Origin: Synechococcus sp. WH 5701
GTDB taxonomy: Bacteria > Cyanobacteriota > Cyanobacteriia > PCC-6307 > Cyanobiaceae
Length of the DNA: 64,000 nt
Direction: 5' to 3'
Assembly (NCBI RefSeq): GCF_000153045.1
Contig: NZ_CH724160.1
Coordinates: 435,142 to 499,141 of the forward strand
Under the pieces are notes generated by a model. The model saw only the letters and a program-made list of their open reading frames with translations. It had not been told where the DNA came from and searched no databases. The position numbers and the translations under genes were made by a program. Every line of letters begins with the position of its first letter. Positions within the stretch are counted from its first letter, which is position 1. Below are positions 22,922 through 25,356 of the stretch, piece by piece.

Positions 22922-22953
22922 GAGTACACCTGTATCACTGCTCGATTCCATTG

Positions 22954-23172
22954 ATGGCCGCCTCCTGCTTCTCTACACCCCGTCTTCTCCCCGCGAGCCT
23001 GGGCCGCCCAGGCCGGGTCCGTCCGTGGAGCCTCCCCCGTGCCTTGGGGGCTCTTCCACTGTTGGTGGTGGCTCTCGTGCTCACGGCCGCCCTGGTGGCT
23101 CCCGAACAGCCCGAGCAGCTCGCGGCCGTCTGCGAGCGCCACAACGGGCCAGCCGCCTGCCGCGTCTGGTGA
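22954..23172 (+). CDS. Small membrane/exported protein of unknown function (72 residues)
   Basis: Not recognised with certainty. A basic, proline-rich N-terminus is followed by one strong hydrophobic helix (about residues 33-48, LGALPLLVVALVLTAALVA) and a short tail with two cysteines (CERHNGPAACRVW). A tail with paired cysteines after a signal-like helix would suit a small lumenal or periplasmic protein. The start is uncertain: the ATG at 22954 follows a TTG at 22951, and the true start may be further in. It sits between the divergent SDR gene and the convergent HNH gene, 13 bases before the latter. Confidence 0.5.
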   Translation: MAASCFSTPRLLPASLGRPGRVRPWSLPRALGALPLLVVALVLTAALVAPEQPEQLAAVCERHNGPAACRVW

Positions 23173-23185
23173 AGGGGTCTTGGCT

Positions 23186-23602
23186 TCAGGCCGCCTGCAG
23201 GGTCATGGCCGGCCTCTGGGGCAGGTCTGAGGACTGGGTTGCTGCTGCTGGCTCGGGAGTGGCCCACTGCAACAGGCGTATGGCCAGGCGCAGGTCGCCA
23301 TCCATCCAGGCCCGGATCGCCATCGCCCGGCGTGGATCGTAGAAGCGCTGACGCCGGTACCAGTCGAAGGCGTCGGCGTCGCTTTTGTGGCCGTTGCAGG
23401 CCAGGCAGGCGGGAACGCAGTTTTCGGTCACACTCAGCCCGCCGCGGCAGCGCGGCATCAGATGATCAATTGACTCGGAACGATTGCCACAATAAATACA
23501 ACGATTTTGGGTCTGTTTGTGCAGGGATTGTCTCCAGCGTCTGACACGCAACTTGGGGCAGAGATCCTCAAGGAAGACCGCATCCCTGACCTGCATTCCC
23601 AT
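23186..23602 (-). CDS. HNH endonuclease family protein
   Basis: Predicted metal-dependent nuclease of 138 residues. The HNH core is complete: a CxxC pair (35, 38), IDHLMPRCRGG with the Asp-His pair (46-47), Asn61, and a second CxxC pair (66, 69) with ACLACNGHK. A basic segment before it (RVRRWRQSL) could contact DNA. The C-terminal third (YDPRRAMAIRAWMDGDLRLAIRLLQWA) is helical and is not part of the HNH fold. The first 45 or so codons, including TGT ATT TAT TGT and TCA ATT GAT CAT, are far richer in A+T than the rest. It is divergent from the SNF2-like helicase across 137 bases. Confidence 0.85.
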   Translation of the reverse strand: MGMQVRDAVFLEDLCPKLRVRRWRQSLHKQTQNRCIYCGNRSESIDHLMPRCRGGLSVTENCVPACLACNGHKSDADAFDWYRRQRFYDPRRAMAIRAWMDGDLRLAIRLLQWATPEPAAATQSSDLPQRPAMTLQAA

Positions 23603-23685
23603 GCCTCGGTTGCGGACAGTTTGCCCATGGCTTCTGGTCTGTCAATGTGTCGACGACTTCATTTTTTCAAGCTGATCGCCAAGGC

Positions 23686-23713
23686 TTGTTCACGGCGCCA
23701 AGCTGACTAGACT
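23686..23713 (+). promoter_or_regulatory. Candidate promoter of the SNF2-like helicase gene
   Basis: TTGTTC (23686-23691) and TAGACT (23708-23713) are spaced by 16 bases and lie 27 bases before the GTG start. On the minus strand the same region holds a perfect TTGACA (23640-23645) facing the HNH gene, but its -10 partner is weak. Confidence 0.35.
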
Positions 23714-23739
23714 TCAACTCCAATGACGGACGCGCGTCG

Positions 23740-25356
23740 GTGTCCCTGCGAGCCACGCGAGGGACTCAGCCGCGCTGCCTGCTGCAGCTTGGGTCCTGCG
23801 GCCTGATCGAGGTGATCTCCCCGTTCGATCCGGTCACCCAGGCCCAGTTGCGCCGGATCAGGCCGGCGGGCCGCTGGCGTGCCCAGCGCCATTGCTGGGA
23901 GTTTCCGCTCGAGGCCGCAGGCCAGTTGCAGGCTCTGCTGGGCGCGCGCTTTGCGATCGAGCCCGGCCTGGCCCAGTGGATGGCCTGGCTGCGCCAGCCA
24001 CTGCCCCCCCTGCCGCCGCATCGTGAGTTGGTGGCGGCTGCCCAGCTGGAGGCCCCCCTGCCGGACGGGCGGCAGCTCTTCAGCCACCAGCGCACGGCGG
24101 CCCGCTGGTTGCTGGCTCGCCGTGGGGCTGTCCTGGCCCATGCGATGGGCCTGGGCAAGACCCTCACAGCCCTGGTGGCAGCCCGCGCCCTCTCCCGTTG
24201 CGCCGACTGCCGCATTGCCGTGGTGGCCCCGGTGGGTCTGCACGGCTTCTGGAGGCAGGAGTCCCTGGCCCTTGAACTGGCTGTGGAGCTGTTCAGCTGG
24301 GCGCGGTTGCCGGCGGAGCTGCCCCCTGCCGGCACCGTGCTGCTCGTGGATGAGGCCCATTTCGCCCAGAACCTGGCGGCGGCCCGTACCCGGGCCCTGC
24401 TGCGCCTGGCCCGTCACCCGCGCCTGCGGGCGATCTGGCTCCTGAGCGGCACCCCGATGAAGAACGGCCGCCCGCGGCAGCTCTTCCCCCTGCTGGCGGC
24501 GATCGATCATCCCCTCGGCCGGGATCAGCTCAGCTTTGAGCAGACCTATTGCCAGGGCCATTGGCGTGAAAGCGGCGGGCGCCGCCACTGGCAGGCCAGC
24601 GGGGCTGAACGTCTGGAGGACCTGCACCGGCTGATTCAGCCGTTGGTGCTGCATCGGCGCAAGCAGGATTGCCTCGACCTTCCCCCCAAACAACGCCTGA
24701 TCTGCCCCGTGGCGCTCAACGCCAGCCAGGCCCAGGGGTTTGAGCATGAGCTGCAGCAGCGGGTGGAGAACTACCGCCTGCGGGCCGCCCGCGGCGAGGT
24801 GCGCCGCGACGCTGAATCCCTGGCGATGCTCACGGCCCTCAGGCAGATCGGCGCGGCCTACAAGGTGCCGGCGGCCCAGGCTCTGGTCACGCAGTTGCTC
24901 GTGGGTGGAGCCGCGGTGGTGGTGTTCACGGCCTTCGTGGCTCCTGCCGAGCGGCTGGCCGCGAGCCTGGGTGGTGCCGTGCTCACGGGCCGTCTCAAGC
25001 CACCGGAGCGGCAGCGCCAGGTGGAGCGCTTCCAGGCGGGCCGGGTGCCGTTGCTGGTGGCCACCTTCGCAGTCGCGGGCCTTGGCTTCACCCTGCACCG
25101 CGCCAGTCACGTTGTGCTGCTGGAGAGGCCCTGGACCCCGGGCGACACCGAGCAGGCGGAGGACCGGGCCCATCGCATCGGCATGGCCGGTCCCCTCACC
25201 GCCCACTGGCTGCAGCTGGGGGTGGCCGATCAGCTGGTGGATGGGCTGATCGCCAGCAAGGCCGAGCGGATTGCCCTGGCCCTCGGTGGCCGTCAGGCGA
25301 TCCTGCGCCGCCAGGCCCTGCCGGCGATGGTGCGCCAGTTACTGGAGGCCTGGTGA
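23740..25356 (+). CDS. SNF2-family helicase with HARP-like N-terminus (SMARCAL1/ZRANB3-like)
   Basis: Predicted DNA-dependent ATPase of 538 residues. Residues about 20-75 resemble a HARP module (SPFDPVTQAQLRRI, then RWRAQRHCWEFPLE). The SNF2 core follows: HQRTAARWLL (Q-motif region, 116-125), GLGKT (137-141), DEAH (204-207), LSGTPMKN (235-242), and in lobe 2 the VVVFTAF, ATFAVAGLGFTLHRA and QAEDRAHRIG (472-481) motifs. Proteins of this type rewind or remodel forked DNA. The start is a GTG at 23740; the nearest ATG upstream is in another frame. Its divergent neighbour is an HNH nuclease, so together they hold the two activities that ZRANB3 has in one chain. Confidence 0.85.
   Translation: MSLRATRGTQPRCLLQLGSCGLIEVISPFDPVTQAQLRRIRPAGRWRAQRHCWEFPLEAAGQLQALLGARFAIEPGLAQWMAWLRQPLPPLPPHRELVAAAQLEAPLPDGRQLFSHQRTAARWLLARRGAVLAHAMGLGKTLTALVAARALSRCADCRIAVVAPVGLHGFWRQESLALELAVELFSWARLPAELPPAGTVLLVDEAHFAQNLAAARTRALLRLARHPRLRAIWLLSGTPMKNGRPRQLFPLLAAIDHPLGRDQLSFEQTYCQGHWRESGGRRHWQASGAERLEDLHRLIQPLVLHRRKQDCLDLPPKQRLICPVALNASQAQGFEHELQQRVENYRLRAARGEVRRDAESLAMLTALRQIGAAYKVPAAQALVTQLLVGGAAVVVFTAFVAPAERLAASLGGAVLTGRLKPPERQRQVERFQAGRVPLLVATFAVAGLGFTLHRASHVVLLERPWTPGDTEQAEDRAHRIGMAGPLTAHWLQLGVADQLVDGLIASKAERIALALGGRQAILRRQALPAMVRQLLEAW

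Follow-up and report, generated by a model that had tools for sequence, protein, structure and literature searches.

A divergent gene pair and its protein families

The DNA analysed here, referred to as the window, is a stretch of 64,000 nucleotides from the genome of Synechococcus sp. WH 5701 (3.28 Mb in 116 contigs), and the subject of this report is a pair of adjacent genes in it, one for a small HNH nuclease and the other for an SNF2-family ATPase, called the helicase below. The pair had been singled out in a first-pass annotation as a possible two-subunit system resembling ZRANB3. Its account of the locus was accurate, and the coordinates, strands and lengths that it gave for the 138- and 538-residue proteins and the 137 bases separating them are those listed in Table 1. 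Both open reading frames (ORFs) are conserved far beyond chance, with orthologues of the helicase (E<1e-150) and of the HNH protein (E<1e-40) in 134 and 241, respectively, of 250 genomes of the order. The closest named relatives of the helicase, 90-93% identical, come from Synechococcus and Cyanobium genomes (L001-L007).

Table 1. Features of the HNH-SNF2 locus, in window coordinates
Feature	Position	Strand	Remarks
HNH nuclease gene	23186..23602	-	138 aa; ORF, Pfam HNH match and orthologues
SNF2-family ATPase gene	23740..25356	+	538 aa; GTG start; ORF, Pfam matches and orthologues
Divergent intergenic region	23603..23739	.	137 bases between the HNH and SNF2 genes
Predicted HARP-like module	23812..23913	+	residues ~25-58, inside an N-terminal domain of residues ~14-85; aligned with the HARP match of L209
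Conserved element TGAAGTCGTCGACACATTGACA	23640..23661	-	upstream of HNH; ends in a TTGACA -35-like hexamer
TTGACA, -35-like hexamer	23640-23645	-	end of the conserved element
CAAACT, -10-like hexamer	23618-23623	-	accompanies the conserved element
C-terminal Q-A-A of the HNH protein	23189..23197	-	conserved tail after a variable linker

Pfam searches of the helicase returned SNF2-rel_dom at 74.4 bits (cut-off 24.9) and Helicase_C at 53.8 bits (cut-off 23.5). The motifs GLGKT, DEAH, SGTPMKN and QAEDRAHRIG, which the first-pass annotation had named, are all present, and the motor motifs were largely invariant across an alignment of 18 helicase sequences, from which L018 was dropped because of an internal stop. 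The L018 stop is a single in-frame codon in an otherwise alignable copy and reflects either a sequencing error or decay. An AlphaFold2 model of the helicase had a mean confidence score (pLDDT) of 80.2, and SNF2 motors headed the 50 Foldseek matches listed for it.

The 138-residue protein matched Pfam HNH (PF01844) at 29.2 bits against a cut-off of 21.4, which bears out the HNH core that had been called complete, with the qualification that the core is of the H-N-N kind, having an asparagine in place of the usual last histidine. Residues D46, H47, N61 and N70 and two CxxC pairs were invariant in 18 HNH sequences, while H72 varied; by family analogy, C35, C38, C66 and C69 would bind zinc and D46, H47, N61 and N70 would be catalytic. 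The best solved-structure match of the HNH profile was GmHNH of Geobacter metallireducens (4h9d_A, E 4.6e-8), followed by IscB-, Cas9- and McrA-type HNH domains among a total of 28 matches. ZRANB3 was absent from these 28, the presence of a ZRANB3 entry in the searched copy being unchecked. The family appears to be specific to its lineage: among 291 genomes sampled from the class, the HNH protein matched 36 family members and reached E<1e-12 in only four others, over 64-79 residues. Cyanophage and marine-virus HNH proteins showed 35-43% identity across 57-71% of the length (12 shown of 358 records). The picocyanobacterial proteins share with GmHNH, IscB, Cas9 and the cyanophage proteins a compact CxxC-zinc HNH core, and differ from them in a strongly conserved C-terminal region, FYDPRRAMAIRAW, and a tail.

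The HNH protein ends in alanine in 63 of 75 distinct sequences and in two alanines in 52, after a variable linker; the tail types were -QAA, -QMAA and -QMAS, with a different end in G141, a genome that lacks the helicase. As compared across HNH orthologues, and not against a genome-wide background, this tail may be a protease tag. Additional HNH copies, ~55-70% identical, lie elsewhere in the chromosome in G016 and other genomes of genus label g2 (L094, L099); G016 carries a third such copy, and a 60% identical copy in L099 is without the conserved tail. The HNH genes of G139 and G140 each have a single in-frame stop in an otherwise alignable copy, due to sequencing error or decay.

Upstream of the HNH gene, the core of the conserved element, TCGACACATTGACA, was complete (14 of 14 letters) in 33 of the 76 distinct upstream regions compared; 61 of them had at least 11 of 14 letters, and in 59 of these 61 it lay 51-60 bases from the HNH start. 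The distance from the element to the helicase gene varied widely, unlike the distance to HNH. Among genomes with HNH alone, L059, L060 and L092 carry the element with at least 11 letters and L061 with 10 letters, and it is not in place in three g2 genomes, in L093 or in G141. A consensus promoter scan gave no match at the element, and no LexA-type site was seen near it by eye, without a dedicated test. A search of the source genome at up to three mismatches found the element in a single copy, and for this reason a regulon was rejected.

Distribution, linkage and loss of the two genes

Both genes were present in 134 of the 250 genomes, HNH alone in 107, neither in nine and the helicase alone in none; the helicase count was cross-checked, and the HNH, both and neither counts were read off the tables. 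In three genomes (G099, G180 and G226) the best HNH match scores like the second copy of the g2 genomes (E 2.5e-45 to 2.1e-49), and the copy in the usual block may be missing. Genomes with HNH alone carry the genus labels g2, g3, g4, g7 and g13, which are probably Prochlorococcus-like, the exception being G141 (g10). The two genes were divergently arranged in all 78 fetched loci that held both, some genomes being counted twice, and among named genomes HNH was divergently upstream of the helicase in 38 of 38 picocyanobacterial loci (L019 and L034 are cut by contig ends). HNH was not divergently upstream of the helicase relative in Laspinema (L039, 40% identity) or of a distant SNF2 gene (L040).

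The pair sits in a block whose order is EF-P, biotin carrier, PdxA, epimerase-like gene, HNH, helicase, small protein, DUF6554, AbrB-family gene and class-V aminotransferase. Pfam backs the labels EF-P, biotin carrier, PdxA, AbrB, class-V aminotransferase and DUF6554, and the epimerase label reflects sub-threshold matches. Seven pair-bearing genomes (L054-L057 and L063-L065) keep this order, apart from single genes that went undetected in some of them. In five genomes with HNH alone (L058-L062) the block order was intact and HNH led straight to DUF6554, and three others (L092, L093 and L098) showed the same helicase-less block as far as the loci reach. G141 has ~1.25 kb (L113:5439-6691) between HNH and DUF6554 without detectable similarity to the helicase, unlike the other sampled g10 members, which keep the helicase. 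Zinc and active-site residues were intact in the nine HNH-only copies from these loci (L058-L062, L092, L093, L098 and G141). G192 keeps the block and is missing both genes, and the block is broken or shortened in three g21 genomes and in G202, which have neither gene.

In a UvrB tree with outgroups, a tree of a single gene, g21 and G202 branched at the base of the family, the fork at G202 being weak (81/57). All pair-bearing rows fell in one clade (98/97), in which G192 was nested weakly (84/45). From these placements it follows that the pair was acquired on the stem of the pair-bearing clade, or else that both genes disappeared together at the base. By parsimony, the helicase alone was lost at least twice, in the HNH-only genera and in G141. 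Both genes appear to have been lost in G192.

Some observations at the locus stand apart from the pair. A small plus-strand ORF of 73 residues (22951-23172) without a Pfam match lies between the epimerase-like gene and HNH, and similarity to it was found at the same site in 10 of 14 picocyanobacterial loci shown. A virus-labelled contig, L163 (IMG/VR 3300006334_001582), has at one end an ORF that looks terminase-like by eye and at the other a host block made up of the aminotransferase end, the AbrB-family gene, DUF6554 and HNH, and is probably chimeric. The literature matches listed included no paper on an HNH/SNF2 pair. According to passages of PMC2921402, PMM1528, an HNH gene, was up under ultraviolet light at one time point, its tie to the HNH orthologue being unconfirmed; the passages of PMC9716671 concern other defence genes.

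The N-terminal module and the kin of the motor

The N-terminal domain of the helicase was modelled with a pLDDT of 86.4 as strand-strand-helix-strand-strand-helix followed by two more helices. The evidence on a HARP module within it came by way of relatives. A phylum survey with the HARP model gave matches at E <=0.01 in 11 of 386 genomes, none of them above the cut-off and none in the source genome when this was searched with the model; in two of the survey genomes (G270 and G293) the match lay upstream of the motor in helicases that were also found by the window protein, and a third such helicase, in G290, gave no match. When three more distant relatives were searched, L087 (of G293) matched at 15.4 bits, below the cut-off, L086 did not match and L085 is cut inside the region. 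Eight of ten viral N-terminal pieces matched HARP (E 6.9e-6 to 0.15), seven of these below the cut-off, and L226 and L233 gave no match; the viral relative L209 reached 26.0 bits against the curated cut-off of 25. L209 is 35% identical to the window helicase over 534 columns, and its HARP stretch aligns with residues ~25-58 of the window protein. An hhalign comparison of the picocyanobacterial N-terminus with the ten viral N-termini and L087 gave a probability of 97.5% (E 6.9e-12). A profile of the N-terminus against solved structures returned nothing sensible up to E 10. We accept a predicted HARP module before the SNF2 motor, only indirectly, by homology and not by a direct match or by fold.

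Outside the family, four genomes of a 339-genome phylum sample matched the helicase at E<1e-30. The best annotated relatives were on four cyanobacterial plasmids (Microcystis p1-NIES88, PCC 7502 pSYN7502.01 and Nostoc plasmids), 38-42% identical over 79-96% of the length; phrog_62 matched at E 4.9e-67, and relatives were found on 38 virus-labelled contigs. In a helicase tree of 49 sequences the picocyanobacterial rows formed one group (100/100) on a long stem, inside a larger group (100/99) with the four plasmid copies, Laspinema, G494 and three virus-labelled copies. The tree thus shows the kinship of the motor with plasmid and virus helicases. Although homologous over most of their length, the four plasmid copies differ from the window helicase in a longer N-terminus (~110-210 residues more by eye), in being plasmid-borne and in having no HNH gene directly beside them.

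A profile and motif scan found no HNH directly beside the helicase in nine non-viral and 38 viral loci, and a motif scan of L039, L040 and L085-L088 likewise found none; many of the loci scanned outside the family have flanks cut to less than 6 kb, and HNH genes of a different type could escape the scan. At a distance, HNH was seen in two viral loci, ~4.2 kb (L223) and, weakly, ~0.8 kb (L213) from the helicase frame, and one Nostoc plasmid has an annotated HNH ~6 kb away. Taken together, the kinship in the tree and the failure to detect an HNH directly beside the outside relatives indicate that the motor has a history outside the pair. As a side observation, the relative in G494 (L088:1464-4931) is 1155 residues long, with an intein-like insert that by eye interrupts the DEAH box, and the L088 and L208 relatives lie, by eye, among phage-tail-type genes.

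Separate genes, partners or complex

The account that we consider probable, with real room left for others, is that these are two separately working genes in a stable picocyanobacterial block and not an obligate complex. The 538-residue protein would be a SMARCAL1-like HARP-SNF2 DNA motor that came from a plasmid or phage lineage and turned into a chromosomal gene, a route that goes beyond the kinship seen in the tree. By its family, it probably binds branched DNA such as stalled forks through the HARP module and, by analogy to SMARCAL1, translocates on duplex DNA at the expense of ATP, so that strands are re-annealed or forks regressed. The 138-residue protein would be a lineage-specific core HNH nuclease, of the CxxC-zinc, H-N-N type and with its own upstream element and tail, which is predicted to cut DNA in a housekeeping role independent of the motor. 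The adjacency of the two may then reflect arrival at one site together with strict conservation of gene order. There is good evidence that HNH does not need the helicase, because HNH is retained where the helicase is gone.

What the protein shares with SMARCAL1/HARP annealing helicases is a two-lobed SNF2 motor immediately preceded by a HARP-like module. As described in passages of PMC4035279, a part of human SMARCAL1 that spans one HARP domain and the whole of the motor is sufficient, and the fly SMARCAL1-type protein has a single HARP domain. The window helicase differs in that its HARP is visible only via relatives and its activity is a predicted one. The suggestion of a HARP-like N-terminus in the first-pass annotation gained support, through L209 above the cut-off and the hhalign comparison, even though the direct Pfam search was silent.

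Several results weigh against this account. None of the 134 helicase-bearing genomes lacks HNH. Coordinates of both genes were available for 119 of them, in one of which (G182) HNH is cut by a contig end, and in all 118 testable genomes the two matches lay 60-227 bp apart. Both genes are absent together from nine genomes, some of them basal, which fits a joint gain or a joint loss, and the independent losses of the helicase are few (at least two), so that independence rests on little replication. As to the motor, Pfam HARP gave no match on the window helicase, on its residues 1-110 or on seven relatives, and a Foldseek search with the N-terminal domain gave no significant match (best E 0.68, XPB-type, TM score <=0.41), with no SMARCAL1 entry in the 50 shown of 94 matches. 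The helicase tree was rooted at its midpoint, its picocyanobacterial rows differ in letter make-up, and it used 31 of the 38 viral rows, seven being left out (near-copies or fragments, and L243).

Some of these results would be expected if the partnership ran one way, with the motor using HNH to cut remodelled forks or junctions while HNH also has a separate task, so that loss of the motor leaves HNH useful and a motor without its nuclease is harmful or useless. The absence of any helicase-bearing genome without HNH and the strict adjacency agree with this, as does the UvrB tree, in which the two genes make their first appearance inside a single clade and G192 lacks both. However, with vertical inheritance few independent events stand behind these counts, the spacing of the upstream element is kept relative to HNH but not relative to the helicase, and no HNH was detected directly beside the helicase in its plasmid and viral relatives. 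We therefore regard a one-way partnership as unlikely, while keeping it as the first alternative to separate function. In a more speculative scenario, improbable in our judgement, the HNH nuclease is a core function of nearly all sampled picocyanobacteria, retained down to the smallest genomes, and a HARP-SNF2 motor of phage or plasmid origin moved in at its upstream region and relies on it. This motor would feed it remodelled forks, with the level of HNH set by the promoter element and a C-terminal protease tag. If true, the motor would be a one-way, dispensable booster of the nuclease and not part of a ZRANB3-like complex.

The two-subunit ZRANB3-like system put forward in the first-pass annotation fared badly. 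It has in its favour two predicted activities side by side and a HARP-like module joined to SNF2, and ZRANB3 (AH2) likewise combines an SNF2 motor with a CxxC-zinc HNH nuclease, although in one polypeptide, whereas the window has two divergent genes. Such a pairing fails because genomes with HNH alone exist: HNH without the motor in 107 of 250 genomes also speaks against a nuclease that depends on motor ATP hydrolysis. In passages of PMC5481773, the ZRANB3 HNH is described as having a specific helical insert and a nuclease that needs ATP hydrolysis; the same passages mention ZRANB3-like proteins of bacteria, and also bacterial HNH proteins that stand alone and carry the insert, neither of which were compared here. 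In the window HNH only seven residues separate C38 of the CxxC from D46, which would leave little room before the DH for such an insert, if its place is read from the residue numbers. The HNH profile does not reach ZRANB3, and no HNH was detected directly beside the helicase relatives outside the family. An obligate complex of this type is accordingly very unlikely. The survey of co-occurrence and adjacency that had been proposed thus gave a divided answer: the genes are adjacent wherever both could be tested and HARP similarity exists, but one of the two is often found alone; this is never the helicase, and the helicase is never unlinked.

Still less credible is an anti-phage defence pair of an SNF2 helicase and a nuclease. 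Through its motor the helicase does match defence SNF2 models, ZorD and DpdE among them, and HNH matches the PDC-M01B and PtuB models. Against this, the locus is fixed between the EF-P, biotin-carboxyl-carrier and PdxA genes and an aminotransferase; eight of nine neighbours scanned against PADLOC matched nothing, the aminotransferase matched SspA and DndA weakly, as a class-V aminotransferase would, and the remaining genes of Zorya or another SNF2 defence system were not found among these nine. That the locus is a mobile-element leftover, in which the helicase is the passenger of a homing-type HNH nuclease, is the least probable reading of all. The cyanophage relatives of HNH and the plasmid-borne and virus-labelled relatives of the helicase speak for it, but 241 of 250 genomes, small ones included, retain HNH, and its active site is intact in the nine HNH-only copies.

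To our knowledge, bacterial HARP-SNF2 motors have been little studied. On the account of two separately working genes, such a motor would be a chromosomal gene in abundant aquatic cyanobacteria that is missing from the most streamlined genera, where its nuclease neighbour stayed. This amounts to a natural experiment, in which lineages with and without the motor can show what the motor does, and it raises the question of what role the nearly universal HNH nuclease has in organisms whose photosynthetic genomes are very small.

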